Shown here: positions 11,209 through 52,959 of the stretch, one piece after another
How the letters are laid out: each line of letters begins with the position of its first letter
Numbering within the stretch: the first letter of the stretch is position 1
Assembly: GCA_013335115.1 (NCBI GenBank)
Contig: JAAXWQ010000002.1
Span: 264,529-328,528 of the forward strand
Length of the DNA stretch: 64,000 bases
Source of the DNA: Chlorobiaceae bacterium
GTDB taxonomy: Bacteria; Bacteroidota; Chlorobiia; Chlorobiales; Chlorobiaceae
Reading direction: 5' to 3'
Made by a program: the position numbers and the translations under genes
The notes under the pieces: model-generated
The model's input: the letters and a program-made list of their open reading frames with translations, nothing else
The model's database searches: none
What the model was told of the DNA's origin: nothing

Positions 11209-12146
11209 TTCACTTTCACTTCGACGATGACATTCATGCCGGCAGCAAGATGTTCCGACGGACGACGGTCGAACACGATCTTGACGGGGACCCTCTGGGC
11301 GACCTTCACGAAGTTTCCGCTCGCGTTGTCCGGAGGCAGGAGCGTGAACCTGGCCCCCGTCCCTGCCGAAATCGACTCGACGTGGCCCTTGAACTCCTTG
11401 CCGGGCCAGGCGTCGACGCTGATCGTCACCGGTTGGCCGGGTCGCACGTGTTCGAGCTGCGTCTCCTTGAAGTTCGCCACAACCCAGAGCTCTCCGCTGC
11501 CGACGATCGCGATGAGCTGCTGGCCAGGCGTGACGTACTGGCCCGGTTCCACGGCCTTTTTCGAGACCCGTCCCGCAGCGGGGGCCGTGATGGCCGTCCA
11601 CGACAGCTGGAGCCCGGCGTTCCTCAGTTCGGCTTCACGTAGCTTTATCTGATTGCCGGCGGCGGCATGCTGTGCCGATGAGGCCGTCGCGCCGGCTGAC
11701 GCCGCATCGAGTTCTGCCTTCGAGATGACGTCCTGGCGCTCCAGGTTTCGGCTCCTCTGCAGGTCTGCGCCGAGTTTCCGTTCCGTGGCTTCGGCGGCAG
11801 CCGCCTGCGACTTCGCGGTCATCAGGGCGGCCTCGGCAATGTCACGCCGTACCTGGTAATCCGACGGGTCGAGCACGACGAGCGTGTCACCCTTGGCGAC
11901 GGCCTGGTTATCCTTCGCCCTCACTTCGGAGACCTTGCCCGCGACGCGCGGGATGACCGGGTAGATATTCCCCTCGATCTGGGCGTTGTCGGTCTCGACG
12001 TAGCTGAACGAATGGAAGAGAGCCTTTCCGCCCCAGACGAGGCCGACAGCCAGCACGACGCCGAACAGGGCGATCCTGACCGGTGATGAAGGGCCGGCTT
12101 TCTCTTCTTTGTTCCCTTCCCTGCTCTGTGTCTGCGAATCTGCCAT
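11205..12146 (-). CDS. emrA: EmrA/HlyD-type membrane fusion protein
   Basis: 313 residues. A short cytoplasmic tail and one membrane helix (about 25-45, RIALFGVVLAVGLVWGGKALF) are followed by the periplasmic adaptor: YVETDNAQIEGNIYPVIPRVAGKV (first lipoyl half), a helical hairpin rich in Ala/Glu/Arg (about 95-175), the second lipoyl half GRVSKKAVEPGQYVTPGQQL, and a beta-barrel. It bridges EmrB to the TolC-like channel. Its stop codon is shared with the emrB start, so translation is coupled, and it lies seven bases after the universal stress gene. Confidence 0.94.
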   Translation of the reverse strand: MADSQTQSREGNKEEKAGPSSPVRIALFGVVLAVGLVWGGKALFHSFSYVETDNAQIEGNIYPVIPRVAGKVSEVRAKDNQAVAKGDTLVVLDPSDYQVRRDIAEAALMTAKSQAAAAEATERKLGADLQRSRNLERQDVISKAELDAASAGATASSAQHAAAGNQIKLREAELRNAGLQLSWTAITAPAAGRVSKKAVEPGQYVTPGQQLIAIVGSGELWVVANFKETQLEHVRPGQPVTISVDAWPGKEFKGHVESISAGTGARFTLLPPDNASGNFVKVAQRVPVKIVFDRRPSEHLAAGMNVIVEVKVK

Positions 12147-12650: not shown

Positions 12651-13949
12651 TTAGTTGGCGATCAGGTCGCCCGAAGCGCGCCTGACGTCGTAAGCGTTGA
12701 GTACATATTCATAACGCGCCTGCAGATGGGCCAGTTCAGCCTGTGCCAGCGCGGCTTCGGCATCGAGGAGGTCGAGGGTCGTGCCCATGCCGTTCTGGTG
12801 CCGTATCCTTGCGTGCCTGGCAGCAAGCTCGGCCTGCGAAACCTGGAGGGCGGTCGTCCCGATCTTTTCGCGGTTCGTGCGTAGCGAGTTCAGCGACTGC
12901 TTCACCTCTGCCTGCGCCTGTTCTTCGGCATCGATGCGCTGCTGCTGCGCGGCGTGCATCATCGCACTTGCCTCGCTGTTCGCGGCGTTGGTCCTGAACC
13001 CGTTGAACAGCGGTACCTGGATCTGGACACCGGCCATGACGTTGGTGCGCATCTCCTTGATGTCCGGCACGTAGCCGTTCGTGGTGCCCCATGATGCGGC
13101 CCCGGTTATGGTCGGTAACCACTCCCGGGCGGCAAGGGATTTTTTTGCTTCGGCCATGCGGAGGTTTTCGCGGGAGAGTGCCACCTCCGGGCGATGGTCG
13201 AGCGCCGAAGCCGTCAGTCCGTCCGCGTTCGTATCGATCCCGTCGAATTCGAACGATCCTTTCAGCGACAGGGGACCGCTTCCCTTCAGGCCGCAAAGGC
13301 GGCGGAAGGAGATCTCCTGGTTTTCAAGCTGCGCCTGCAGGCCGATTTTCCGGTTCCTGGCCGCAGACACCCGCACCTCGGTGGTCAGGAGGTCGAAACG
13401 GGTGGCGACGCCCTCCCGGTAACGCTTCTGCATGTGCTCGAGGTTGCTGCCGAGTGCGGCGATCTCCTGTTCCTGGACCTTGACGGCCTGTTGCAGGAAG
13501 AGCACCGAATAGAACGAACGCACGGTCGCGAGCGAAAGGTCGCGGATGGTCAGTTCCCTCGAGATGCCGGCCGTCGTCCTGCCGGATTTGGCGATGTCGA
13601 CCCGGCGACCGGTCCGGCCGAAATCGAGGAGCATCATTTCGGCCGTCACCTTCGCGGTGTAGTTGTTGTTGGGCATGAACTGCATTCCCTGCAGCTCGGA
13701 CACGGGATCGATGTAGGTGTACCCCGCTTTCGCCGAAACCTGCGGGTACCAGGCGCTGCGGCTTTCGGTGACCTTCGCATCCGCTGCCTTCACCTCCTCG
13801 CCGGCTTGAAGCGCCCTCGGGTTGTGGCCACGCGTGAGGCGTATTGCTTCGTCGAGCGTCATCGGGGTTTCGGCGCCGAGGCCGGGCCGTGCCATGGCGA
13901 TGAGTGCGGTAAAGGCGATCAGTGCTGCTTTGCTACTGCGTATCTTCAT
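12651..13949 (-). CDS. tolC: TolC-family outer-membrane efflux protein
   Basis: 432 residues with an N-terminal signal peptide (about 1-25, [18 protein letters not shown]) and two repeats of the outer-membrane efflux protein fold: [20 protein letters not shown] and the long coiled-coil helices around 150-220 and 330-400 ([34 protein letters not shown]). It forms the trimeric exit duct for the EmrAB pump encoded downstream. It is the first gene of the leftward operon and lies directly behind a sigma-54 type promoter. Confidence 0.92.
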
Positions 13950-13983: not shown

Positions 13984-14000
13984 TACAACAAGCGTGCCAG
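13984..14000 (-). promoter_or_regulatory. Sigma-54 (-24/-12) promoter of the tolC-usp-emrA-emrB operon
   Basis: On the minus strand the sequence CTGGCACGCTTGTTGTA carries the TGGCACG -24 box, then four bases and TTGTA, with the required GG-N10-G spacing; the only deviation from TGGCACG-N4-TTGCA is T for C at -12. It ends 34 bases before the tolC start, and the gene divergent to it encodes a sigma-54 activator. Confidence 0.75.
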
Positions 14001-39024: not shown

Positions 39025-39054
39025 TTGAGACGTCTCAAAATGAGAATTATTCTC
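39025..39054. promoter_or_regulatory. Paired palindromes upstream of the Tad promoter (candidate enhancer)
   Basis: TTGAGACGTCTCAA (39025-39038) is a perfect 14-base palindrome, and GAGAATTATTCTC (39042-39054) is a perfect palindrome around one central base. They lie 80-110 bases before the -24 box at 39134. Position suits upstream activator sites for a sigma-54 activator. The second one also resembles a Fur-family 7-1-7 box, which is an alternative reading. Confidence 0.5.
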
Positions 39055-39131
39055 GGTTTGAGCACCATTCGCGCGTGCTGGCAGGGTGTCTTTTACGCTT
39101 TTGCGTACCTCTTTTTCGTACTTAGATGGCT

Positions 39132-39148
39132 TTGGCACGCGTCTTGCA
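39132..39148 (+). promoter_or_regulatory. Consensus sigma-54 (-24/-12) promoter of the Tad locus
   Basis: TTGGCACGCGTCTTGCA matches TTGGCACG-N4-TTGCA exactly, with GG at 39134-39135 and GC at 39146-39147 separated by 10 bases. Transcription would begin near 39159, giving a 150-base leader before the pilin ATG. Confidence 0.85.
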
Positions 39149-39311
39149 GTAAATACTTCGAGGCGTAGTCCTGAGCTGCTCCATTCTCATGGATGATTCA
39201 GGAAAATGTCTTAACCGATCTGATTCCAGAGGCCTGAACGGCTTGCCCGGGAAGGCTTTTGGGAGAGGAAATCATAGCTGATCATCATTCTAACCATCTG
39301 GAGAAAAAATC

Positions 39312-39602
39312 ATGAAAAAGATGCTTGATACCCTTGTTTCCTTTGCGGCATTTGGTTTTGGCGGCACGGCTACGGACGACTCTGGTGCGTATGACGACTT
39401 GCTGTTACCAGCTCAGCCCGACAAGGTATTCTCCATCAAATCACAGAAAGGCGTCACCATGATCGAGTATGCCTTGATTGCCGGTTTGATTTCTGTTGTC
39501 GCGATTGGATTTCTTACTAGCGCAGGACAACATGTGACCAGTATTTTTACGGACATCAGTACTGCCCTGGGTACTGCTGCGGGTACTGGTGGTGCAGACT
39601 GA
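39312..39602 (+). CDS. flp: Flp/Tad-type pilin precursor with unusually long leader
   Basis: 96 residues. The processing site is QKG-VTMIEYALIAGLISVV: Gly47 precedes the cut and Glu52-Tyr53 are at +5/+6, as in Flp pilins. The mature form would be 49 residues with one hydrophobic helix and a Gly/Ala/Thr tail. Flp leaders are usually about 10-25 residues, but here 47 residues precede the cut, with a hydrophobic start (MLDTLVSFAAFGFGG) and an acidic middle. GGAG lies eight bases before this ATG and supports it. It is the first gene of the Tad locus, behind a sigma-54 promoter. The prepilin peptidase is encoded at the end of the locus. Confidence 0.9.
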   Translation: MKKMLDTLVSFAAFGFGGTATDDSGAYDDLLLPAQPDKVFSIKSQKGVTMIEYALIAGLISVVAIGFLTSAGQHVTSIFTDISTALGTAAGTGGAD

Positions 39603-39637: not shown

Positions 39638-40447
39638 GTGAAACTACCACTCTTTGCTGCCATCGCACTCACTCTGGGGGCGATGGCAGCATTCGCCGCC
39701 GCCCGCCTGGTGGGCGTCGCCCAAACAGGGCCCAGGGTCGTCATCGTTGAGCAGCCCATCGAAGCAGGAAAAGCCATTAGAGCAGATCAAATCAAGGCCA
39801 TCGATTGGTCAGGCTCGACCGTACCGCACGAAGCATCCGCTCGCACCACCGACGTGGTCGGTCGAATTGCCATCGTGTCCATGATCCCGGGTGAGCCGGT
39901 CCTGCCAGGCAAATTGGCCCCGAAAAACGCCACTGGCGGGTTATCATCGATCATCCCCGAGGGCAAACGCGCCATTACGGTTCGGGTGAACGAGGTGATT
40001 GCGGTTGCCGGATTTGCCCTGCCGGGGAGCTTTGTGGATGTGTTGGCCAGCGGCAAGGACGCCGACAACCAGCCGTTTTCGCGAACCGTGCTGTCGCGCG
40101 TCAAGGTATTGGCCGTGGCCCAGGAAACCACGGCAGACCAGGCCAAGCCAAAAGTGGTCAATGCCGTAACCCTCGAGCTGACGCCGCTCGAATCTGAAAA
40201 GCTCGACCTGGCCCGCAACATCGGGGTGCTTTCCCTGGTCTTGCGCAACGAGCTCGACACCAGCGAAATAAACTCCGCAGGTGTCCGCCTGCCCGACATC
40301 GTCAATCCGCAGTCCACTCGTGCAGCCTCCGCTTCGCCGGCGGCACCGGCGGTGCCGGCTACGCATACGGTAAGGGCATCTTCGCGTCAAAGCCGTGGAC
40401 CTGAAGAGATCCGTGGCACCAGTCGCCAAACCGTTGCCATCCCCTAA
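39638..40447 (+). CDS. cpaB: Flp pilus assembly protein CpaB/RcpC
   Basis: 269 residues, GTG start (39638). An N-terminal membrane helix (LFAAIALTLGAMAAFAAARLVG) is followed by an SAF-like domain (VIVEQPIEAGKAIRADQIKAIDW) and the RcpC domain (KRAITVRVNEVIAVAGFALPGSFVDVLAS, RTVLSRVKVLAVAQ). A Ser/Ala/Pro-rich tail (about 230-269) follows. CpaB is a periplasmic partner of the Tad secretin, probably steadying it against the cell wall. It lies 35 bases after the pilin gene. Confidence 0.92.
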   Translation: MKLPLFAAIALTLGAMAAFAAARLVGVAQTGPRVVIVEQPIEAGKAIRADQIKAIDWSGSTVPHEASARTTDVVGRIAIVSMIPGEPVLPGKLAPKNATGGLSSIIPEGKRAITVRVNEVIAVAGFALPGSFVDVLASGKDADNQPFSRTVLSRVKVLAVAQETTADQAKPKVVNAVTLELTPLESEKLDLARNIGVLSLVLRNELDTSEINSAGVRLPDIVNPQSTRAASASPAAPAVPATHTVRASSRQSRGPEEIRGTSRQTVAIP

Positions 40448-40458
40448 CCAACACGAAC

Positions 40459-42207
40459 ATGACTTTACCATGCTTCATGCGTTCGGCCTGCAGGATGAGT
40501 GCCCTGGTGGCGCTTGCCGGCACCGTGCCTGTGGCCGCCAAGGCCGCTCCTGAATCCTTGCCCACCAAGTCCTCTCCGGCTCCTGTGGTCGCCAAGGCGG
40601 CCCCTGAATCGATGCCTGCCAAGGCCTCCCTGGTGCTCGCGGGCCCCAAGGCTTCCCCGGTACCCGGGTCCGCCAGGGCCACAGTACCCACAGCCGGCAA
40701 GTCATCCCGGGTAGCGGTGGCCACCAGGTCCTTGCCGGTACCCGCGACCGCGAACGCCTCGCCGGTACGCCTGGCCTCCAGGAACCCGGTACCTGTTACC
40801 GCCAACTCCTCTCCGGTGCCCGTGGCCGCAATGGCCCCACCCACGGCCTACCTTGTGCCTGTGGGCGAATCCAGGGTCTATCGGCTCGAGCGCCCCGTTA
40901 AACGTGTTGCCGTGGGTAACCCCGAGGTGGCCGACTACCTTATGCTCAATGCCTCCGAGCTTTATCTGCTTGGCAAGAAACCTGGCACAACCAATCTTGT
41001 CGTCTGGGACCAACAGGGAAACTTCATCTCCACGCCGCTGCAGGTCAGCCGCAACATGAGCCCCGTAAAGGCCTTGTTGAAAGTCGTCTTGCCGAAAGAG
41101 AACGACGTTCGGATCTTTGCCTCGGGGCCGGCGGTGGTACTGGAGGGCTCCGTATCTGACGCCATGGCTGCTGAGACCGTCACGCGCCTGGTAAAAGCGT
41201 ATCTGGGTGGCACGGTCCCGGGTGTCAACCCCGAATCAACCCTGGCGAACAGTGCCGCCGCCCCTGCCTATGCGACGCCAACCAGTTTGTCTGGCTTGGC
41301 CACTGGTGCCTCGGGCTCTGCGGCATCGGCCAGCACGCAGGGTGCGGCCAACAGTGCGGCTTCTGCCGGCATACCCGGCCTGGTCAACCTCCTCAAGGTC
41401 CGCGATCCGCAGCAGGTCCGGCTCGAAGTCCGCATTGCCGAAGTTTCCAGGTCCTACATCGAAAGCTTGGGCCTCGGCTGGCAGCAAGGCTTGGGCACTA
41501 CCCAGGGCAGCCTCATGACCGGTTTTGTCAGCAACGCAACGCTCGACCTCCTGCTGCAGGCTAAGTACGACCCCATTACCAAGACCACTGTAGGCAACCG
41601 TCTCCTGGCGGACGCCGAGCGCAAGACCAGTTTGTTTAAAATCCTGGCTGAGCCCACCATTGTCGCCATGAGTGGCCAGGAAGGGTACTTCCTGGTTGGC
41701 GGTAAGATTTACACGCCTACCGTCACCTCCAACGGAGCAATCGACTACGTCGAGCGGACCTATGGCGTGGGTTTGCGATTTACGCCCACCGTGCTGGATG
41801 CCGGCCGTATTTCGCTGAGGGTTGCCCCTGAGGTTTCCGAGCCCCTCAAGGATGCCGTTTTTTCGGGAACGACTACCGGCACGTTGCTGCCCGCCTTTAA
41901 AACCAGTTACGCTTCCACCACCGTCCAGATGAACGAAGGGGAAAACCTGGTGATTGGCGGCCTGTTGCGCGACAATCTCAACGACGTCATCCGGGCAGTG
42001 CCTTTGCTGGGTGACATCCCCATCCTCGGCGCGCTGTTCCGGCATACCGAGATGAGTTCTGAAACAACCGAGCTCATGGTCATCATTCGCCCCGTCCTGG
42101 TCAAAGCCAGTGCCTCCGCACCGGAGCTTCCTACCGACAGGGTCGCATCGCCGACACGCAAAGAGCTGTTCATCGACGGAAAGATTCACGGTTCACGGGT
42201 AAAATGA
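40459..42207 (+). CDS. cpaC: Tad/Flp pilus outer-membrane secretin CpaC/RcpA
   Basis: 582 residues. A signal peptide (about 1-28) is followed by a Pro/Ala/Ser-rich spacer of about 100 residues built of six degenerate 17-18 residue units (28-128), the pilus assembly N-domain (YLVPVGESRVYRLERPVKRVAVGNPEVAD), a BON-like region (VVLEGSVSDAMAAETVTRLVKAY), and the secretin beta-domain (RLEVRIAEVSRSYIESLG; VVGLRFTPTVLDAGRISLRVAPEVSE; GENLVIGGLLRD; VPLLGDIPILGALFRH). It forms the outer-membrane gate for the pilus. The gene overlaps tadE by four bases (ATGA). Confidence 0.94.
   Translation: MTLPCFMRSACRMSALVALAGTVPVAAKAAPESLPTKSSPAPVVAKAAPESMPAKASLVLAGPKASPVPGSARATVPTAGKSSRVAVATRSLPVPATANASPVRLASRNPVPVTANSSPVPVAAMAPPTAYLVPVGESRVYRLERPVKRVAVGNPEVADYLMLNASELYLLGKKPGTTNLVVWDQQGNFISTPLQVSRNMSPVKALLKVVLPKENDVRIFASGPAVVLEGSVSDAMAAETVTRLVKAYLGGTVPGVNPESTLANSAAAPAYATPTSLSGLATGASGSAASASTQGAANSAASAGIPGLVNLLKVRDPQQVRLEVRIAEVSRSYIESLGLGWQQGLGTTQGSLMTGFVSNATLDLLLQAKYDPITKTTVGNRLLADAERKTSLFKILAEPTIVAMSGQEGYFLVGGKIYTPTVTSNGAIDYVERTYGVGLRFTPTVLDAGRISLRVAPEVSEPLKDAVFSGTTTGTLLPAFKTSYASTTVQMNEGENLVIGGLLRDNLNDVIRAVPLLGDIPILGALFRHTEMSSETTELMVIIRPVLVKASASAPELPTDRVASPTRKELFIDGKIHGSRVK
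40540..40842 (+). repeat. Six degenerate ~51-54 base repeats in the secretin gene
   Basis: They encode units beginning KAAPESLPTKSSPAPVVA, KAAPESMPAKASLVLAG, PKASPVPG, KSSRVAVAT, ANASPVRL and ANSSPVPV. Copies 1 and 2 still share GCTCCTGAATC-type sequence. The spacer probably spans the periplasm between signal peptide and N-domain. Confidence 0.6.
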
Positions 42208-42680
42208 CTCCAATGTGCACAGATATCGCCAGGTTTCAGGTCCCGGCAACGGAAGGCGCCCAATCCCAAAAGGGCAATGTGCTGATCGAATTTGCGCTTA
42301 TCCTGCCCTTGTTCCTGCTTCTCCTTTTCGGGGTGGTTACGTTTTCCGTAGCCTTGTACGATAAAACCATGCTCACCATGGCCACCCGTGAGGGCGCTCG
42401 TGCCGGAGCCATGTACGTTGCCACCTCCGCTGCCGACATGACGGCCACCAACACCGCAGCAGCCACTGCCGCCAAAGGCAAAACCGAAGCGCTCCTTAAT
42501 AATAATATCAAACTCATCTCCTTTGCGTCTGGAAGCGTTACGCCCACGGTCACGGCTAGCGTTGATACAGGCACCAAGAACATCAATGTCAAAGCCAGCA
42601 TCTCGTTCACTGGACTCTATGTTCTTCCTGATGCAATGCAGATCGCAGCTGAATCTACGATGAGGACCGAATACCAATGA
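42204..42680 (+). CDS. tadE: TadE-like pseudopilin
   Basis: 158 residues. A processing-like site, SQKGNVLIEFALILPLFLLLLFG (Gly, then Glu at about +5), starts a TadE-type hydrophobic helix, and EGARAGAMYVATSA follows as usual for TadE. It is probably a minor pilin needed for Flp assembly, cut by the locus peptidase. It shares four-base stop/start overlaps with the secretin gene before it and the TadG-like gene after it. Confidence 0.9.
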   Translation: MTPMCTDIARFQVPATEGAQSQKGNVLIEFALILPLFLLLLFGVVTFSVALYDKTMLTMATREGARAGAMYVATSAADMTATNTAAATAAKGKTEALLNNNIKLISFASGSVTPTVTASVDTGTKNINVKASISFTGLYVLPDAMQIAAESTMRTEYQ

Positions 42681-43696
42681 CAAGGTCACACTACATCATC
42701 AAATGGTTGCCCGGACAGCGTGGCAGTGCCTCTATCTGGTTTGTCTTGTGCTTGCCGGTGTTGCTGGGATTTGCCGCTTTGTCGGTTGACCTGGCTCGCC
42801 TCAACCTCATCAAGGTCGAACTTCAAAACGCGGCCGACGCTGCTGCCCTGGGCGGTGCTTATGCCATCAGCGTCCCCTCTTCTTCGAAGAAGGACCAGCC
42901 TTACAACTGGACAGCGGCCATAGACAGGGCGACCAAGGTGGCAACATCCAACTTTGCCAACGGCGCGAAGATTACGGATGCGACTGTTGAAACGGGTTAC
43001 TGGAACCTTAAAGCCAGTGCCGTCGACGGCAAAAGCTGTGGAACCGGATGCGTCCCTTACGTCCGGGCAACGGTAACAATCTCCAGCACCGAAAACAACG
43101 GGCCCGTGAAGTTTTTTTTCGCCCCCATTTTTCATGTTGCCCAAAGTAACATTCAAGCCAGTGCCACTGCCGTGACAGGCCCACCCTCGGGCGGTACGGG
43201 CATGTTTCCCTGGGCCATCGATGAAAGTTTCCTGTTAAAAAACTGGAAAGCATATAAGCAAGGCAAAAGCCTGACTATCGCTTCCGTCTACAAAGGCGGC
43301 CATGGCCAATGGAGCAGCTTAATGGGAAATACCTCAGCGGACTCATACATAGATGGATTGATGACGAAAGGAAACTCAAACTATTTAGCTATAAACAGCT
43401 CCGACACCAAGATTTATATAGCAAATGGCGCAATGTCTAACCTGTATGGCGATGCGGCAGGCTTAATCGGTTCAGGCAAAATTTTTGCCGTACCCGTTGT
43501 TCAAACTCTTGCTCAAGGTTCCTCGGTACCAATCCTTGAGATTGCCGCTTTTCAAATTGACTCCGTTAAAAAGAACGGTGCCAACAGCACGGTTACGGGT
43601 CATTTCATCGATGGATATACTTTCCCCGGCCTCACCCTGGGCGATGGCCACGGGAAGTTATACGGCGCCTTCACTGCACCAGTACTGGTCCAATAA
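42677..43696 (+). CDS. tadG: TadG-like pilus-associated protein
   Basis: 339 residues. The N-terminal helix QRGSASIWFVLCLPVLLGFAALSVDLARL and the segment VELQNAADAAALGGAYA are the Tad_N pattern shared by TadG-like proteins. The rest (about 60-339) is mostly beta, secreted-looking sequence rich in Asn, Ser and Gly with one Cys pair (KSCGTGC, about 111-116), and shows no von Willebrand domain. It overlaps tadE by four bases. It is probably a periplasmic or surface component; role is inferred. Confidence 0.82.
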   Translation: MTRSHYIIKWLPGQRGSASIWFVLCLPVLLGFAALSVDLARLNLIKVELQNAADAAALGGAYAISVPSSSKKDQPYNWTAAIDRATKVATSNFANGAKITDATVETGYWNLKASAVDGKSCGTGCVPYVRATVTISSTENNGPVKFFFAPIFHVAQSNIQASATAVTGPPSGGTGMFPWAIDESFLLKNWKAYKQGKSLTIASVYKGGHGQWSSLMGNTSADSYIDGLMTKGNSNYLAINSSDTKIYIANGAMSNLYGDAAGLIGSGKIFAVPVVQTLAQGSSVPILEIAAFQIDSVKKNGANSTVTGHFIDGYTFPGLTLGDGHGKLYGAFTAPVLVQ

Positions 43697-43702
43697 ACAC
43701 CC

Positions 43703-44854
43703 ATGAACATTACTCTTTACTCTCCCCGGCCATGGGAGGTCCCCGACACCCAGCTTGACCTGGGTCAGCACCAGCTGGTCCGACTGGTGGGCGAGCCTGG
43801 GGTTATGGTGCGCCAACTCAACGCGCAAGCCGCCGATCTCGTTTTTCTGGTGGGCTTTGACCCTGCCGAGCCCCGCTACATCCAAGAGGTTGAGAAACTC
43901 TGCCTCTCGCTGCCGCAAGCAGCCATCGTGGCCGTGCACCCACAGGCACAGCCCGAACTGTTGTTGACCCTTATGCGCGCCGGTGTGCGTGAAGTCATCG
44001 TCGACAGCACCCCCGAAACCCTGCGACAGGTTATCGAGCGCGCCCGCCTTCGTGCCAAAGGCGCCAGCATCAGCCGGGGACGGGTTTTTGGGTTTGTCGC
44101 TTCCAAAGGGGGGGATGGCTGCTCCTGCATCGCGGCCAACCTGGCCTATGCGCTCGCACAAGTGCCCGAAACCCGCGTGCTGGCCGTCGATCTTTCTTTA
44201 CCTTTTGGCGACCTCGACATGTACCTCACCGGAGATAACCACCCGCAAGACCTGGCCGACATCTCCGGTCAATCCGACAGGATCGACCAGTCGCTGCTCG
44301 ACAGCATGGTGCAGCACCTCAACCCCACGCTCGACCTCATCCCCTCGCCCACGACGTTTGAAAAAATCGTTCAGATCGAACCCGAGCGCGTGAGCCAGCT
44401 GATTCAGCTTGCTACAAATTTTTACGACTACATCCTGGTTGACTTCGGCTCATCTTTTGACCAGGTCGGCATCTGGGTCCTGGAGCACCTGAACGAACTC
44501 TGCATCGTATCCACCCCGTCGTTGCCGTCGCTGCGCAGGGCGGGCCAACTGCTCAAGCTCTGGAAAGAATTTGAAAAACCCATGTCGCGCGTCGAAATCA
44601 TCCTCAACCGTGACGACACGAGCGCTCCCGTTTCCATTGCCGAAATCGAAAAAGTCATCGGCAGGCCCATTGACAGACGCCTCCCCTCCGACGCCGAAGC
44701 CGTGCAGCAATCCCTTTTGATTGGTCAGCCTTTCCTGCACGTGGAACCCAGGTCCGAACTTTCCAAAACCATCGTTGACTGGGCCGCGCAACTCACCGGC
44801 AACAGTCATCGTCATCGTAAACGCTCGCTATGGGAACGCTTAAAGATCAAATAG
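43703..44854 (+). CDS. tadZ: Tad pilus localisation ATPase CpaE/TadZ
   Basis: 383 residues. The N-terminal receiver-like atypical domain (about 1-125) is followed by a MinD/ParA-type ATPase domain: FGFVASKGGDGCSCIAANLAYAL (deviant Walker A with KGGxG), LAVDLSLPFGDLDMYL, and DYILVDFGSSFDQVG. The Walker A has Cys where GKT/GKS is usual (GGDGCS), a feature of many TadZ proteins. It places the pilus machine at the cell pole. Its last 25 bases overlap the start of tadA. Confidence 0.9.
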   Translation: MNITLYSPRPWEVPDTQLDLGQHQLVRLVGEPGVMVRQLNAQAADLVFLVGFDPAEPRYIQEVEKLCLSLPQAAIVAVHPQAQPELLLTLMRAGVREVIVDSTPETLRQVIERARLRAKGASISRGRVFGFVASKGGDGCSCIAANLAYALAQVPETRVLAVDLSLPFGDLDMYLTGDNHPQDLADISGQSDRIDQSLLDSMVQHLNPTLDLIPSPTTFEKIVQIEPERVSQLIQLATNFYDYILVDFGSSFDQVGIWVLEHLNELCIVSTPSLPSLRRAGQLLKLWKEFEKPMSRVEIILNRDDTSAPVSIAEIEKVIGRPIDRRLPSDAEAVQQSLLIGQPFLHVEPRSELSKTIVDWAAQLTGNSHRHRKRSLWERLKIK

Positions 44855-46269
44855 CCCGCTGGAACCTTTCCACCAAACGGGTTACGGTTCCCCCGACATC
44901 GGTGCCTGGCGCCGCCGATGCGCCGGCACGACCTCAGGTCGTTGAGGCTCAGGCTTCGCCAGCACCATCGCCGGCGATAAAAGCCAAGGCTACCCCGGGG
45001 GTTGACTATTGCGCAACCAAAATGAAGTTGCACCAACAGCTGCTCACCCGCATCGATCTCAACTCCATCGAAAGCCTGACCCCCGAGCAGCTGCGCAACC
45101 AGCTTGGGGCTTTGCTGGTCGAGTTCATCGAAGAGGACTCCATCCCCCTCAATGATCGGGAACGCGCCAGGCTGGTGGCCGACCTCAAAAACGAGATCAT
45201 GGGCCTTGGCCCTTTGGAGCCCTTGCTTGCCGACCCCGCCATTTCTGAAATCATGGTCAACGGCCATCAAAACATCTTTGTCGAAAAAGGCGGATGCATT
45301 GAGAGTACCGACATCCGCTTCAACGACGATGCACACCTCATGAAAATCATCGACAAGATCGTCTCCCGTGTGGGACGGCGCATCGATGAATCCAGCCCCA
45401 TGGCTGATTCACGCCTGCCCGATGGGGCCCGCGTCAACGCCATCATTCCGCCATTGGCCCTCGACGGCCCGGTCCTCACCATTCGGCGCTTTTCGGTGGT
45501 TCCGCTGCTCATGCACGACCTCATTGAAAAACACACACTGACGCCAGCCATGGCCGAACTGCTCTCGGCCCTGGTTAAGGTCAAGTGCAACATCATCATT
45601 TCCGGGGGGACCGGTACGGGCAAGACCACGCTGCTCAACATCCTCTCAAGCTTCATTCCAAGCAGCGAACGCATCGTCACCATTGAAGACACTGCCGAAC
45701 TGCAGCTTCAGCAGGACCATGTTATCCGCCTGGAAACGCGCCCGCCGAACATTGAAGGCAAAGGCGAAATCACCATGCGCGCACTGGTGAAAAACTCCTT
45801 GCGCATGCGGCCCGACCGCATCGTGCTGGGCGAGATCCGCAGCGCCGAGGTGATCGACATGCTCCAGGCCATGAACACCGGGCACGAGGGCTCGCTCACC
45901 ACCATTCACGCCAACACCCCGCGGGATGCACTGAGCCGGCTCGAAAACCTGGTGGGGATGGGTGGCATCAGCCTTCCCGGCAAAGCCCTCCGGCAGCTCA
46001 TTACCTCGTCGATTCACTTTATCGTCCAGGTCACCAGGCTGGATGACGGTAGCCGCAAGCTTACGAGCATCCAGGAAATCATCGGCATGGAGGGCGACAT
46101 CATCACCACCCAGGAAATCTATTGCTACAAGCGCACCGGCACCAACCCGGACGGATCCGTGCAGGGAATGTTCAGCGCTACGGGCGTGCGTCCCAGGGTG
46201 TATGAAAAAATATGCACTTACGGTATTCGCCTCAGTGACGGCATGTTCGACCCCGGCGTCAACGATTAA
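44830..46269 (+). CDS. tadA: Tad pilus assembly ATPase CpaF/TadA
   Basis: 479 residues of the VirB11/GspE secretion ATPase family. An N-terminal Pro/Ala-rich tail leads into the N-domain (about 60-240, MGLGPLEPLLADPAISEIMVNGHQNIFVE), then Walker A GGTGTGKTTLLNIL, the Asp box IVTIEDTAELQLQQDHV, Walker B RPDRIVLGEIRSAEV and the His box GHEGSLTTIHAN. It powers pilus extension and secretion from the cytoplasm. It overlaps tadZ by 25 bases. Confidence 0.96.
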   Translation: MGTLKDQIARWNLSTKRVTVPPTSVPGAADAPARPQVVEAQASPAPSPAIKAKATPGVDYCATKMKLHQQLLTRIDLNSIESLTPEQLRNQLGALLVEFIEEDSIPLNDRERARLVADLKNEIMGLGPLEPLLADPAISEIMVNGHQNIFVEKGGCIESTDIRFNDDAHLMKIIDKIVSRVGRRIDESSPMADSRLPDGARVNAIIPPLALDGPVLTIRRFSVVPLLMHDLIEKHTLTPAMAELLSALVKVKCNIIISGGTGTGKTTLLNILSSFIPSSERIVTIEDTAELQLQQDHVIRLETRPPNIEGKGEITMRALVKNSLRMRPDRIVLGEIRSAEVIDMLQAMNTGHEGSLTTIHANTPRDALSRLENLVGMGGISLPGKALRQLITSSIHFIVQVTRLDDGSRKLTSIQEIIGMEGDIITTQEIYCYKRTGTNPDGSVQGMFSATGVRPRVYEKICTYGIRLSDGMFDPGVND

Positions 46270-46283
46270 CCCGCGAGCACATC

Positions 46284-47255
46284 ATGAACAAGGTTTTACT
46301 CCCGTTCCTGGCTTTTGTGGCCGTCATGCTGATCATGTTGCTCCTCTATGGGGTGTGGGTCTACGTTTTCGACCGCAGCAACCAGGCCAGGAAAAAACAG
46401 CGCTTGCAGACTATCCACAACGCCGTTCAGCCGGGCGGGCACAACCTGGACAGCGTGCAAGCCAGCCGGCAGGAGCGTGCACTCGAAACCTGGCTGCGCT
46501 CACGCTCCAGGACATTTGAACTACTTGAAAACCTGGCCAGGCAAGCCCACAGCCCGATCTCTGCCGGGCGCTTGGTGGGCATCATGCTCGCCTTTTTTAC
46601 GGTGGTTGTGGTGCTTGGACTGCTGCGCCAGGCAAACCCTTTGCTCATGCTGGTGCTTGCGGTCGCCATCGCCGGTACGCCGGTCCTGTGGTTACGTCGA
46701 AAGGCCAGTCGACGCCGCCAGGCCTTCGGAGACAAGCTCCCGGAAGCGATCGACTACATTTCGCGGGCACTGCGCGCCGGCCACAGCCTCAGCACGGCCA
46801 TCGGCATGCTTGGCAAGGAGTTCCCAGACCCCATAGGCCATGAATTCAAAGCCGTCTCCGATGAAATCCTCTTCAGCATCCCGTTCAAAGACGCCATGGG
46901 CCAACTCGCCGATCGCGTGCAAAGCAATGACCTCAATTTCTTTGTCATCTCGCTCATGATCCAGCACGAAACCGGCGGCAACCTCACCGAACTGCTTGAC
47001 GGGCTGGCCAAAACCATGCGCGAACGTGTCAAGCTGCGCGGCAAGATCCGCACGCTCTCATCCGAAGGGCGCGTATCAGCGCTGATACTTGGTGGCATGC
47101 CGTTTGTGCTCACCGGCATCCTCCTGTTCATCAACCCCGTCTACATCTCGACGCTCTGGACCACTCCCCAGGGCCAGAATCTCATTTCCATCGGTGGCGG
47201 GCTCATGGTTGTTGGCTTCCTCCTGCTCAACCGCATCATCCAGATCAAGGTTTAA
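46284..47255 (+). CDS. tadB: Tad pilus inner-membrane protein TadB
   Basis: 323 residues with a type II secretion F domain. Membrane helices lie near the N-terminus (LPFLAFVAVMLIMLLLYGVWVYVF), around 95-135 and at the C-terminal end. The T2SSF pattern is KLPEAIDYISRALRAGHSLSTAIGMLGKE...GDRVQSNDLNFFVISLMIQHETGGNLTELLDGLA. With TadC it forms the inner-membrane platform of the pilus. It starts 14 bases after tadA. Confidence 0.93.
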   Translation: MNKVLLPFLAFVAVMLIMLLLYGVWVYVFDRSNQARKKQRLQTIHNAVQPGGHNLDSVQASRQERALETWLRSRSRTFELLENLARQAHSPISAGRLVGIMLAFFTVVVVLGLLRQANPLLMLVLAVAIAGTPVLWLRRKASRRRQAFGDKLPEAIDYISRALRAGHSLSTAIGMLGKEFPDPIGHEFKAVSDEILFSIPFKDAMGQLADRVQSNDLNFFVISLMIQHETGGNLTELLDGLAKTMRERVKLRGKIRTLSSEGRVSALILGGMPFVLTGILLFINPVYISTLWTTPQGQNLISIGGGLMVVGFLLLNRIIQIKV

Positions 47256-47274
47256 CCCTAGCCGCTCCCACACC

Positions 47275-48222
47275 ATGCTTGCAACATTGCAAATCCTGAC
47301 GATCGTGCTCACGGGGGCTGCTGCCGCCTCGCTTGCGCTTGCGTCGTACGGTTGGGCGATCGACAACGCCCTCAAAAAACGCTTTACCCGAGTCGTTCGC
47401 CAAGGCTGGGCCACGGCTGACGCATCCTTGACCAAGACGGCCAATCCCCGCAAGGTGGCCGCCGTCATCGATATCCTGTCCAAGCTCTCGCTCCCGGAAG
47501 AGGGTTGGCAAAGCTCTAGTGTCCGGCTCAGGTTTTTGCAGGCCGGAATCCGCAATAAAAATGCACCGCGCGACTACTTCGCCATCAAGACCCTGCTCAC
47601 CATGGTGCTACCGGTGGCGCTGGCTTTGTCCCTGCATTTCACCCGGCCGGACATCCCCGTCATACGGGTCTTGCTCCTGGTGCTGCTCACCGCCGCAGCA
47701 GGCTACTACCTGCCCGAACTGTTCCTGCGTTTCATCACCCGGCAACGTATCGAACGCATGCGCAACAGCCTGCCCGACATGATCGACCTCATGGTCATCT
47801 GCACCGAGTCGGGAATGGGCATCGACTCCGCCATTGCCCGCATATCGCACGAAATGGCCCGTATCGCCCCCGACCTGGCCCAGGAGTTTTACCTCTCGGC
47901 CCTCGAGATGCGTGCCGGCGCCACCCGCATCGATGCCTTGCGCAACCTTGCACTGCGTTCACGCCTTGAAGACCTGGAAGATTTCGTCGCCATGCTGGTA
48001 CAGGCCGATAAGTTTGGTACCAGCCTTGCTGAATCGTTGCGTGTGCAGTCAGACATGATGCGCTCACGCCGTTCCCAACGAGCCGAAGAGCTTGCTGCCA
48101 AAATTCCCGTCAAAATGCTGCTGCCGCTCGCTTTGTTTATTTTCCCGACGCTCCTGATGGTCCTGCTGGGCCCGGCAGTCATCCAGATGATTCAAGCCTT
48201 CTCAAACAAGCCCATACCATGA
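47275..48222 (+). CDS. tadC: Tad pilus inner-membrane protein TadC
   Basis: 315 residues from the ATG at 47275; the frame is open to 47089 but that part overlaps tadB. Helices at the N-terminus (LQILTIVLTGAAAASLALASYGWAI), about 105-145 and the C-terminus, with the T2SSF segment SLPDMIDLMVICTESGMGIDSAIARISHEM...DLEDFVAMLVQADKFGTSLAESLRVQSD. It is a paralogue of TadB and its platform partner. It overlaps the peptidase gene by four bases. Confidence 0.93.
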   Translation: MLATLQILTIVLTGAAAASLALASYGWAIDNALKKRFTRVVRQGWATADASLTKTANPRKVAAVIDILSKLSLPEEGWQSSSVRLRFLQAGIRNKNAPRDYFAIKTLLTMVLPVALALSLHFTRPDIPVIRVLLLVLLTAAAGYYLPELFLRFITRQRIERMRNSLPDMIDLMVICTESGMGIDSAIARISHEMARIAPDLAQEFYLSALEMRAGATRIDALRNLALRSRLEDLEDFVAMLVQADKFGTSLAESLRVQSDMMRSRRSQRAEELAAKIPVKMLLPLALFIFPTLLMVLLGPAVIQMIQAFSNKPIP

Positions 48223-48932
48223 ACCTCAACTCCATGTTGCGTGTCTTTTGGGCGCTCTGGCCGTGGTGCCTGGCCGGCGCGTTGATTGGCCTGTGGCTGG
48301 TGCCCCTGGCCCGCATCATTCCGCGTACGGTGTTGCAGCGTGCACGATCCCCGCTGCACGAATGGCAGGGGCCGGGTGGTGGCCTGGGCCAGCCGGTGCC
48401 GCCGGCACGACGCATTTGGGTGCCGTTGCTCAACGCCGGCCTCTGGGCGTATGCTGCCGCCACGGCCACCCAGCCGGCATTCTGGGCCGCGCTACCGGAG
48501 GCAGGTTTGGCCAGTACCCTGGTATTGCTCGCCCTTATCGACTGGGACACCACCATGTTGCCGGATTGGGTGGTTTTGCCGCTTGGGGTGGCAGGTCTCT
48601 TGGGCAGCTATGCGGGGTTGACTCCGAACGGCCTGCCCGTCAGCGCGGCATCCGCCGCCGTGGTGCTGGTTTTGCTGGGCGGGCTTGCCTGGGCGTTCCG
48701 GCTAATCAAGGGCGCCCGAGGCATCGGTGGTGGCGACCTCAAGCTCCTGGCCGCACTTGCTGCATGGTTCGGCCTTTTCGGCGTGCTGTACGTGGTGTTG
48801 TGGTCAAGTGTCGTTACCGTAGCCTGGTATGTGGCGTGGCGCCGTTTCAAAGGCCTTGGAATCGAGGCCGAATGGCCATTCGGGCCCGCTATCGTGGCAG
48901 CTGCGCTGGCATGGAGCTTGGGGGTTGCTTAG
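48219..48932 (+). CDS. tadV: Prepilin peptidase (A24 family), CpaA/TadV-like
   Basis: 237 residues with about six membrane helices. The two catalytic aspartates are in ALIDWDTTMLPDWVVLP and GIGGGDLKLLAAL (the GxGDxKLL motif). It lacks the N-terminal methyltransferase cysteines of PilD. At 237 residues it is longer than usual TadV/CpaA (about 170) and closer to the GspO core. It should cut the Flp pilin and the TadE/TadG pseudopilins. It is the last gene of the locus; its stop overlaps the end of the convergent sensor kinase by four bases. Confidence 0.9.
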   Translation: MNLNSMLRVFWALWPWCLAGALIGLWLVPLARIIPRTVLQRARSPLHEWQGPGGGLGQPVPPARRIWVPLLNAGLWAYAAATATQPAFWAALPEAGLASTLVLLALIDWDTTMLPDWVVLPLGVAGLLGSYAGLTPNGLPVSAASAAVVLVLLGGLAWAFRLIKGARGIGGGDLKLLAALAAWFGLFGVLYVVLWSSVVTVAWYVAWRRFKGLGIEAEWPFGPAIVAAALAWSLGVA

Positions 48933-50905
48933 GGCAATTGCTGCTGATTGTGTTCCAGTATCGTATGGACCTTGTTGAGGAACCGGATGATGCTGAACGG
49001 CTTTGAGATGAAATTGGTTTCTTCACTGACCTTCCCGTATTCGCCCAGGGTCTCGGTACTGTATCCCGAGATGAACAGGAACTTCATGGCGGGGTTATGT
49101 TTCACCAGCTCCTTGCTCATGAGCACCCCGTTCATACACGGCAGGAGGATGTCGGAAATGGTCAATTCAATCTTTTCCGTCTGCTGCCGGGCGATTTCAA
49201 GGGCATCTTCGGCATTGTTCGCGCCCAGTGCCACGAATCCTGCCTGTTCCAACACCGTCTTGATGATTTTTGCAATGTGAGGCTCGTCTTCCACGACGAG
49301 TACCACTGTTTTGTCAGGTGCTGCAGGTTGGTCCATCGGAATCGGGCTGTCGTCAGCGTCGGGTGACTTCTGGACAATCGGGAAAAAGATGTTGAATGTC
49401 GTGCCCTTGCCCATCGCGGTTTCACAAGTGATATGCCCATCGTTTTGCCTGACCAGGCCATACACCGTAGACAATCCCATGCCGGTGCCCTTTCCAACTC
49501 CCTTGGTTGTAAAGAATGGTTCGAATATGTGAGGGTAGATGTCGGGAGGGATTCCTGAACCATTGTCCGAAATCCTTATCCTGAGATAGTCGCCAGGCGG
49601 GTTGACAGAAACATGCTGGAGCTCTTCGCAGTTGTGCGCATTGACGGTCGTTGTGTTGAGGGTGATGTGGCCTTGGCCATATCCGTCAATGGCATCACGG
49701 GCGTTGACGCAGAGGTTGGTGACAATCTGGACAAGATTTGCCGGATCGATTTTTACCAGGAGGTTCGGGCAATTCAGCTCCCAGCGCAGGAAGATGTTTT
49801 CCCTGAGCAGTTTGCGAAGCAGAAGGTACATCCTGTCGAGTTCGGCGTCTATTTCAATGTCTATGGGGCACCTCGGCTGCTTGCGGGCGAAAGCGAGCAG
49901 GTGCTTGACCATCTCCGCTGAACGGTCGACCGAATGCGTGATGGTGACGAGGTTCTGGTAATGCGGATTGGTGGGGGAGATATCTTTCATAATGAGCTCG
50001 GTGCTGCCCTGGATCGATGTCAGCACATTGTTGAAGTCGTGGGCTATGCCTCCGGCGAGTTGCCCGAGCAATTCCAGCTTCTGGGCTTGAACGAGCTGCT
50101 CCTGCAATTCCTCATTGATCCTTTTGAGTTCGTTGAACTCGGTTATGTCCTGAGTAGTGCCAACGTAGTGCGTTGCCTTGCCGTTAGCGTCGAACTGGCA
50201 ACTCGACATGACATAAATCCAGCGGCGCTCCCCGTCGGTACGACGAATACGGCATTTATAATAGTAATTGGATTGCGTGTTTATCGATGAGCGGATCAGG
50301 GTTTCTATGCCGGGGCGATCCTCCGGGACGATGTGCTCCAACAGGCGTTCCCTGGTCCATGATACGTCGGCATCGGGTTCGTAACCGAAGATTCGTGCCT
50401 GTTCAGCGTTCCCGACAGCGGTATTGGTCATGAGGTCAATTTTCCACAGGCCGATATGGCAGGATTCGGAAGTGATGTCCCACTGTGTCTGCAGGTCGCA
50501 TATCTCCTGCTCGTTTTGGTGCTGCTGGGTGATGTCCCGTAAAATGATGAAGAGCTCGATGACCTCTCCATTTGGGGATAAGATGGGATAGGCCCCGATT
50601 TGGTTTGCGATGCTGTTATGGGTGTCAGTAAAGACAACGCTTTTTTTTGTGCTCAAAACCTGCTGCAGGATTGCCCTTCTGCTGGACCCGACAGCTCCCA
50701 TCGTCGGGTGTGCTTCCATGAAATCAAAGACATTTGTTCCGGGACCCTTTACGCCATACCCCGCACAGAATGATTTTCCTGTCGGATTGGTCTCGATGAT
50801 CGTGCCTGCGGCGTCGATGATGAACATGGGTTCGGCGCTGCCGTCGAAAAAGGCATGCATCCGGTTGTATTGGCAGGTGATTCCGGTTTTATCAGGCATG
50901 GGCAT
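48929..50905 (-). CDS. PAS-PAS hybrid histidine kinase with C-terminal receiver
   Basis: 658 residues, no membrane helices. Order: PAS (about 10-130, MFIIDAAGTIIETNP), PAS with PAC (about 145-275, RIFGYEPDADVSWTRE, GTTQDITEF), a short coiled linker, HisKA with the phosphoacceptor His in LAGGIAHDFNNVLTSIQG, HATPase_c (VTNLCVNARDAI, ISDNGSGIPPD, GTGMGLSTVYGLV), and a receiver (VVLVVEDEPHIAK; Asp in ISDILLPCMNG; Lys in FISKPFS). Organisation resembles CckA. It is cytoplasmic and probably senses an internal redox or ligand signal. It converges on the Tad locus and has no adjacent regulator gene. Confidence 0.93.
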   Translation of the reverse strand: MPMPDKTGITCQYNRMHAFFDGSAEPMFIIDAAGTIIETNPTGKSFCAGYGVKGPGTNVFDFMEAHPTMGAVGSSRRAILQQVLSTKKSVVFTDTHNSIANQIGAYPILSPNGEVIELFIILRDITQQHQNEQEICDLQTQWDITSESCHIGLWKIDLMTNTAVGNAEQARIFGYEPDADVSWTRERLLEHIVPEDRPGIETLIRSSINTQSNYYYKCRIRRTDGERRWIYVMSSCQFDANGKATHYVGTTQDITEFNELKRINEELQEQLVQAQKLELLGQLAGGIAHDFNNVLTSIQGSTELIMKDISPTNPHYQNLVTITHSVDRSAEMVKHLLAFARKQPRCPIDIEIDAELDRMYLLLRKLLRENIFLRWELNCPNLLVKIDPANLVQIVTNLCVNARDAIDGYGQGHITLNTTTVNAHNCEELQHVSVNPPGDYLRIRISDNGSGIPPDIYPHIFEPFFTTKGVGKGTGMGLSTVYGLVRQNDGHITCETAMGKGTTFNIFFPIVQKSPDADDSPIPMDQPAAPDKTVVLVVEDEPHIAKIIKTVLEQAGFVALGANNAEDALEIARQQTEKIELTISDILLPCMNGVLMSKELVKHNPAMKFLFISGYSTETLGEYGKVSEETNFISKPFSIIRFLNKVHTILEHNQQQLP

Positions 50906-52278: not shown

Positions 52279-52551
52279 TTAGTAGCGTTCCCTTCTCATC
52301 GGGCGCTCTTCGCGCGGCCTTGCCTCGTTGACCTTTATGGTGCGCCCCTTGAAATCCTTGTCGTTCATGGCTTCGATCGCTTCGCGACCCTCGCCATCGT
52401 TCGGCATGTCGACAAAACCGAAACCTTTGGAGCGGCCGGAGAATTTGTCAGTGATGATGTTGGCGCTTTGCACCTGCCCGAACTGGGAAAAAGCATCGCG
52501 TAAATCTTCTTCCGTAACGCCGTACGGCAGATTGCCAATGTAAATATTCAT
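52279..52551 (-). CDS. RNA-binding protein, single RRM domain
   Basis: 90 residues. One RRM fills the protein: MNIYIGNLPYGVTEEDLRDAF (RNP2 as IYIGNL) and GRSKGFGFVDMPND (RNP1 as KGFGFV), then an Arg/Glu-rich tail (EARPREERPMRRERY). Such single-RRM proteins in bacteria are often cold-induced RNA chaperones. The 5' region has a palindrome 80-100 bases upstream and an AT-rich stretch. It is monocistronic, ending at a clear terminator. Confidence 0.94.
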   Translation of the reverse strand: MNIYIGNLPYGVTEEDLRDAFSQFGQVQSANIITDKFSGRSKGFGFVDMPNDGEGREAIEAMNDKDFKGRTIKVNEARPREERPMRRERY

Positions 52552-52628
52552 TGTTGGACGGTAGAAACTTGTGCCTTGACAGAAAGAGACGCGACCGAAT
52601 AACCAAAGGCACCAGTTACTCGTGAGCG

Positions 52629-52649
52629 ATTAGCCAACCACTGGCTAAT
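52629..52649. promoter_or_regulatory. 8-bp inverted repeat upstream of the RRM gene
   Basis: ATTAGCCA (52629-52636) and TGGCTAAT (52642-52649) are perfect arms around ACCAC, about 80-100 bases upstream of the RRM start on the minus strand. It may be an operator or the base of a leader hairpin. Confidence 0.4.
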
Positions 52650-52959
52650 TTAATTATGAATTTACCTTATTATATAGCTGTTTTCAAAATGAAAAAGGCG
52701 CGAATTAGTGTATAAACACCGTAAAGCGCCTCTGATTTTAGTCCTTTTGCCCCCTTTTTCGGATTCCGGGAGGAACTTCCCTGGAAAAATATTCCGCTCT
52801 CGTCCTGGCGTTCCTCCCGCACCCGCCACCACCCTTCCTTTTTCCCGAGCCCGGCGTTCCTGTCGTCCAGGGGTTGCAGGCTCATTGCCCATGACAACCC
52901 CTGAATCGCGCCAGCTCCGGAGCTCAATCTACTATTTTGTAAGAAAAGATCGTTTTGTC

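Follow-up and report, generated by a model that had tools for sequence, protein, structure and literature searches.

A sigma-54-type promoter and a predicted enhancer word upstream of a Tad pilus locus in a green sulfur bacterium, with a candidate regulon

The Tad locus and its promoter

The analysed stretch of DNA, referred to here as the window, comprises 64 kb (C1:264529-328528) of a genome, very likely from the genus Chlorobaculum, that was available as 2.10 Mb on 29 contigs. Pfam searches assigned ten ORFs between 39312 and 48932, all on the plus strand, to a Tad/Flp locus, which agrees with the ten-gene rightward locus described in an earlier note on this DNA. It begins with the gene for an Flp pilin (39312-39602; Flp_Fap, E 1.2e-14), followed by genes for an RcpC/CpaB protein (39638-40447), a secretin (CpaC/RcpA; 40459-42207), TadE (42204-42680), a Tad/TadG-like protein (42677-43696), a CpaE/TadZ-like ATPase (43703-44854; AAA_31), for which we assume the name CpaE, the assembly ATPase CpaF/TadA (44830-46269; T2SSE), TadB (46284-47255; T2SSF), TadC (47275-48222; T2SSF), the start of which was placed within the ORF 47089-48222 by ribosome-site scoring, and a prepilin peptidase (48219-48932; Peptidase_A24). 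Upstream of the locus lies a glmS-like gene with SIS and glutamine amidotransferase domains, and inverted repeats and a terminator-like hairpin are found downstream of this gene and before the Tad locus. At the other end, a gene for a PAS-PAS hybrid histidine kinase (48929-50905, minus strand) abuts the last Tad gene. Further on, a Chlorobi-RRM RNA (RF01697, 70.5 bits) was detected at 52579-52651 on the minus strand, just upstream of the gene for an RRM protein (52279-52551).

The pilin gene is preceded by the sigma-54-type promoter sequence TTGGCACGCGTCTTGCA (39132-39148, plus strand), which carries the -24 GG at 39134-39135 and the -12 GC at 39146-39147 with ten bases between them (GG-N10-GC), agrees with the consensus TGGCAC-N5-TTGC and would place the transcription start near 39159. 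Its score of 18.7 is the best possible one in the site model used. The consensus match reported in the earlier note was confirmed to be exact and is the only exact one in the window, where 0.15 would be expected by composition; the other 60 of the 61 matches found at up to two mismatches contain one or two, and the number of matches as a whole is at chance level (shuffle mean 65.7). For the longer pattern TGGCACG-N4-TTGCA, composition predicts 3.7e-5 occurrences on the promoter's strand of the 532-bp gap. Across the genome the exact core was found at seven sites, compared to two for the reversed pattern and 4.9 expected by composition; taken alone and genome-wide, the core hexamers are near chance and constitute weak evidence. 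A genome search for promoters at up to one mismatch was likewise discarded as no better than chance (119 sites vs. 153 for the control). Judged by ORF overlap, four of the seven exact cores are intergenic and face a gene, namely the Tad pilin gene, nifH, an hsp20-like gene and an exopolysaccharide export gene (the names nifH and hsp20 being read from translations and not from family matches), and three lie inside ORFs. The earlier claim that no other strong promoter precedes the locus is consistent with a sigma-70 scan upstream of the pilin gene, which returned a single 9-of-12 match (39025-39053) that overlaps the enhancer described below. A riboswitch in the pilin leader was also considered and rejected, as Rfam gave no credible match (best E 0.62, to a snoRNA).

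An upstream word shared with other loci

Comparison by eye of the regions upstream of the Tad promoter and of the exopolysaccharide site revealed a common word, represented by TCTCAAAATGAGA and TCTCAGAATGAGA, respectively. At the Tad locus it forms an exact TCTCA-N3-TGAGA (39033-39045) 87 bp before the promoter, a distance within the range of roughly 80-160 bp upstream that was used as the criterion for an activator site of a sigma-54 promoter. A weaker second copy with two mismatches, TCTCGGTTTGAGC (39051-39063), lies 18 bp beyond the first, and the two copies together make up a 29-bp near-palindrome (39034-39062). The palindrome at the Tad locus alone was not significant, with 13 of 200 shuffles being equally good, and generic palindrome scoring missed the shared word. 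In the genome, TCTCA-N3-TGAGA occurs exactly at 11 places, compared to none for the reversed control and 1.1 expected by composition, and at up to one mismatch at 27 places vs. 11 for the control; another 31 exact places were found across five relatives. Copies of the word form arrays with a spacing of 19-21 bp. At an offset of 17-22 bp from 40 exact words, 17 extra copies with up to three mismatches were counted, some of them overlapping or counted from both sides, vs. 1.4 in shuffles (highest value 5). No word at up to two mismatches was found within 300 bp of the sigma-54 sites of nifH, the hsp20-like gene and the efflux genes of the window; the site before the hsp20-like gene (L013, G000:C16:36854-36868, minus strand) has an exact core. 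Taken together, TCTCA-N3-TGAGA is predicted to be an enhancer word, i.e., the site of an activator, and it is the presence of this word, not the hexamers alone, which makes the call of a sigma-54 promoter convincing.

The association between word and promoter was examined by searching for the best sigma-54-like site within 200 bp of each exact word, in the outward direction and, as control, in the inward direction (score cut-off 9, set in the same script). In the window's own genome, an outward site was found for 9 of the 11 words and an inward one for 1 of the 11, while the five relatives with the candidate regulator described below yielded 27 of 31 vs. 1 of 31. For the six genomes together this amounts to 36/42 vs. 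2/42 (Fisher's exact test, 8e-15, with relatedness ignored), with spacers of 74 to 155 bp between word and site. Two of the 36 paired cases, the Tad and exopolysaccharide promoters, are not independent, since the word was defined from them. As these two own sites defined the word and most of the own sites had been seen beforehand, the 31 words of the relatives represent the clean test, although among them one promoter was counted for two words (L223), L209 and L210 are perhaps the same gene on two contigs and the site of L221 is weak. Genomes of the genus without the regulator gave 0/8 outward and 2/8 inward sites, and in the wider family, among the matches listed (20 of 25 places), the counts were 8/20 and 2/20.

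The genes behind these word-site pairs are the predicted members of a regulon. They include an exopolysaccharide cluster that starts with SLBB and Wzz proteins and contains glycosyltransferase genes further on (two of which were scanned), rfbA-rfbC-rfbD-like genes, and an operon that encodes a family 2 glycosyltransferase together with a polysaccharide deacetylase/GHL protein (poly-N-acetylglucosamine-like), which we presume to be comparable to pgaC-pgaB. Further predicted members are an outer-membrane-barrel gene, small secreted-looking proteins without family matches, a chaperone-like gene adjoining the regulator gene (recognised by eye, without family match) and a gene weakly similar to nucleotidyltransferases, the homologues of which are preceded by a word-site pair in all six genomes. 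A DUF4402/PapD-type cluster is a possible member; its word lies 357 bp from a near-consensus site, i.e., beyond the 200-bp range of the test. None of the ten target proteins scanned against NCBIfam matched any model, and the exopolysaccharide export protein scored 34.6 bits with the export model of the PEP-CTERM system, below its cut-off of 180.

In addition to protein-coding genes, the predicted regulon contains RNA loci. Tandem promoters at C25:241755 and C25:242187, both on the minus strand, precede Chlorobi-1 RNAs (RF01696) with terminator-like ends (L158, G000:C25:241478-242150); two of the four Chlorobi-1 matches in the genome exceed the gathering cut-off (61.4 and 58.3 bits). Of the 21 genomes of the genus, only the six with a close homologue of the regulator contain RF01696, and all six of them do. 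The RNA core was located in 15 of 26 Chlorobi-1 loci (the other 11, among them every genome's lone second locus, lie outside this count), and each of these 15 is preceded by a sigma-54-like site at a distance of no more than 700 bp. At the nearest site of these 15 cores, the best word has zero or one mismatch in 12 cases and two mismatches in three. Tandem Chlorobi-1 RNAs behind sigma-54-type promoters and the same word were also observed in L194, L205, L223 and L263-L288. Chlorobi-1 appeared in a 2010 list of candidate structured RNAs (PMC2864571), and a search of the open-access literature found no function for it.

The candidate activator and competing readings

The genome encodes one RpoN and five full sigma-54 activators; four additional proteins that match the activator domain weakly probably represent other AAA proteins. 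Together with the shared enhancer word, this repertoire supports the sigma-54-type reading of the Tad promoter put forward in the earlier note. Its remark that no activator gene lies beside the promoter holds locally, but the window does contain one such gene, about 23 kb upstream of the Tad promoter (start probably at 14143, end at 16248), which encodes GAF and sigma-54 AAA domains. Beside it lie outer-membrane-efflux and HlyD-type genes (12651-13949 and 11205-12146, minus strand), preceded by a one-mismatch sigma-54 site of their own (13985-13999, minus strand). As this activator adjoins efflux genes whose own site lacks the word, it was rejected as regulator of the Tad locus and is probably not the one acting there.

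The search for an activator fitting the palindromes upstream of the promoter, which the earlier note had proposed, points instead to C25:146473-147861, an orphan response regulator encoded outside the window. It is of the NtrC type, with receiver, sigma-54 AAA and Fis-type domains and a GAFTGA loop in its translation. In G000 (the window's genome), G010 and G018, a word starts 20, 18 and 21 bp past the stop of the regulator gene, respectively; in G006, G011 and G016 none follows it, the best candidates having three to four mismatches. Since only three of the six genomes have the word next to the regulator gene, the idea of a fixed neighbourhood was dropped. The regulator-adjacent word is followed by a sigma-54-like site and related chaperone-like genes in G000 and G018. 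In G010 this word has no good site after it, and a related chaperone-like gene is located on a different contig, where it has a word and a site of its own.

A homologue of the regulator with at least 70% identity is present in 6 of the 21 genomes of the genus, and these six (G000, G006, G010, G011, G016, G018) contain 11, 6, 5, 9, 4 and 7 words, respectively. The other 15 contain zero to three words, the three being found in G017, which is 77% complete. In a GyrA tree covering all genomes of the genus except G017, which gave no match (20 of 21), the six fall inside a clade of eight, with at least two label changes; the other two members of the clade, G007 and G012, have no close homologue, zero and one words and no Chlorobi-1. 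The co-occurrence of regulator and word thus mostly reflects common ancestry, with no more than a single joint loss, and does not amount to six independent events. Homologues elsewhere in the family, at 53-62% identity, are not accompanied by a clear enrichment of the word. The distribution within the genus and the adjacency in three genomes suggest that, among the five activators, it is C25:146473-147861 that binds the word. The PAS-PAS hybrid histidine kinase next to the Tad locus could be a partner of this orphan regulator.

It is conceivable, albeit unlikely, that the promoter is sigma-54-dependent and part of the regulon while a different activator recognises the word, such as the response regulator C25:196441-197775 or the activator at C25:228438, which lacks a sensor domain. 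Both carry Fis-type DNA-binding domains and both lie outside the profiling across relatives, which covered C25:146473-147861 alone among the five activators; moreover, the word lies away from the favoured gene in three of the six genomes. Against this stands that close homologues of the favoured gene track the word within the genus and adjoin it in three genomes, and that C25:196441 has an adjacent kinase gene. Two of the remaining activators are further disfavoured by the promoters next to them, as a NifA-like activator adjoins nifH and the window's own activator the efflux genes, and neither promoter has the word.

We consider it quite improbable that the promoter depends on sigma-54 with an activator binding elsewhere and the palindrome serving as the site of a repressor such as Fur. 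The stretch TGAGAATTATTCTC (39041-39054), which we take to resemble a Fur box, has three other occurrences in the genome at up to one mismatch vs. none for the control; however, 36 of the 42 copies of the word overlapping it are paired with a sigma-54-like site, and the Fur-like extension is missing from the other members of the word set. A fortuitous promoter match, with transcription of the locus starting at another promoter or continuing from glmS, is very improbable: the near-chance frequency of the core hexamers across the genome, the scarcity of such sigma-54 sites before the Tad loci of relatives and the lack of a match to the promoter region in the 20 other genomes of the genus speak for it, but an exact word at the distance and in the direction seen for most other copies is unexpected by chance, no strong sigma-70 match lies upstream of the pilin gene, and the inverted repeats and the hairpin downstream of glmS oppose read-through.

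The explanation we favour, and hold to be probable, is that the sigma-54-type promoter of the Tad locus belongs to a cell-surface regulon extending across the genome, with C25:146473-147861 as the predicted protein that binds TCTCA-N3-TGAGA and drives sigma-54 RNA polymerase. At the level of DNA sequence it draws on the putative promoter and enhancer and the distance between them, on the recurrence of this pairing in front of many other genes, and on the enrichment of the word in those genomes of the genus that carry a close homologue of the regulator. As the Tad pilus, slime-making and small-RNA genes share the upstream word and sigma-54-type promoters, one regulator is likely to co-activate them. 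In such a scheme, a signal, presumably phosphorylation, would activate the orphan regulator, whose oligomers on the arrayed words would reach the sigma-54 polymerase at -24/-12 through DNA looping. The outcome might be joint production of pili, polysaccharide and Chlorobi-1 RNAs as a programme for attachment or aggregation.

Other Tad loci, known systems and implications

The same genome contains a second Tad locus on contig C10 with all ten genes (secretin approximately 90%, ATPase 87%, TadE 52% and TadG 49% identical), and neither such a sigma-54 site nor the word was found upstream of its pilin gene. Conservation of the Tad promoter as proof of its function failed: a word at up to one mismatch is present in 2 of 45 stretches upstream of pilin genes, neither of them paired as in the window, these 45 comprising relatives and the own second locus, with L107 and L127 shortened by contig ends and no pilin match in L114, L129 and L135. 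The window's promoter region itself has no match in the 20 other genomes of the genus. Since no Tad locus of a relative examined has the enhancer-promoter pair, the locus looks like a recent recruit to the regulon. Sigma-54-like sites at up to one mismatch do precede Tad pilin genes in five relatives (six on the forward strand including the window vs. none on the reverse), with an exact core in G024, and as these few relatives have sites of their own, sigma-54 may have been recruited to Tad loci more than once. Upstream of the first pilin gene, L105, L132 and L071 share a common TTTCATGGCA...TTGA stretch that has, by eye, the look of a TTGA-type sigma-54 site.

Further features were observed around the pilin genes of these loci. 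A conserved leader of approximately 95 nt lies directly before the Tad pilin genes of six relatives and of the own second locus (L102:3755-3862, L109, L111, L116, L130, L133, L134); it has no Rfam match at gathering level and a weak predicted fold of seven pairs, and was not seen before the Tad locus of the window. In L123 (G015:C1; 1996-3630) and L121 (G019:C1; 2640-4099), pilin genes occur in three tandem copies, which in L123 have a 732-bp period with a cpaB start after each copy.

Several known systems resemble the predicted one in part. PilS-PilR controls a type IVa pilin gene through a sigma-54 promoter; here, a sigma-54-type promoter would likewise serve a pilin gene, but one of a Tad/Flp locus and with an unlinked orphan regulator for which no PilS-like partner was identified. 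In LuxO-Qrr, a response-regulator activator exerts sigma-54 control over tandem small RNAs, which is reminiscent of the sigma-54-type promoters before repeated small RNAs described above; in contrast, the RNAs here are Chlorobi-1 (RF01696), the predicted output includes surface structures, and the regulator scores 331.4 bits with the LuxO model, far below its cut-off of 800. The PrsR/PEP-CTERM system, as far as the accessible text of its descriptions goes, shares an NtrC-type response regulator, a two-part site of activator and sigma-54 motifs, a matching phylogenetic profile and an exopolysaccharide context (PMC1569441; PMC9850573). It is described there for Proteobacteria, and the regulator studied here reaches 370.6 bits with the PrsR model (TIGR02915), below the cut-off of 502.6.

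The closest precedent comes from Desulfovibrio vulgaris, where, according to the available part of the source, the sigma-54-dependent response regulator DVU2114 targets the pilin genes DORF39640-DVU2116 beside cpa/Tad-type assembly genes (PMC3333781); its targets are listed under pili in a further source, likewise available in part (PMC4641369). As described in the former, the DVU2114 gene is near its pilin targets by locus number and the other listed target is a pilus-assembly operon (PMC3333781), whereas the regulator here is unlinked and the predicted regulon wider, with polysaccharides, Chlorobi-1 RNAs and an enhancer word of its own. This precedent makes the arrangement less novel than the earlier note had assumed (PMC3333781). 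What would be new is the activator, its enhancer and the link to Chlorobi-1, sigma-54 control of a Tad-type locus being already precedented. For green sulfur bacteria, no report of sigma-54 control of Tad was found in the open-access literature, which is weak evidence of absence, and the accessible part of a recent sigma-54 survey mentions nitrogen fixation for this bacterial group (PMC12316311).

On a broader interpretation, towards which we incline slightly, one Chlorobaculum clade would possess a dedicated surface-lifestyle switch, by which sigma-54 and an orphan regulator of the NtrC type, acting on TCTCA-N3-TGAGA, turn on matrix polysaccharides and, as an RNA arm, Chlorobi-1, with the whole Tad operon having been captured in the species of the window and the paralogous second Tad locus staying outside. 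Starting from a single promoter match, the analysis arrives at a predicted regulon for which an activator, a ten-base enhancer word and the spacing can be specified. The genome's two Tad loci, only one of which falls within this predicted regulon, would represent a case of regulatory rewiring. With a promoter and a likely regulator at hand, the role of Chlorobi-1 becomes testable. As Tad pili have been proposed to keep green sulfur bacteria within syntrophic mixtures (PMC7762298), joint control of pili and matrix would also bear on aggregation.
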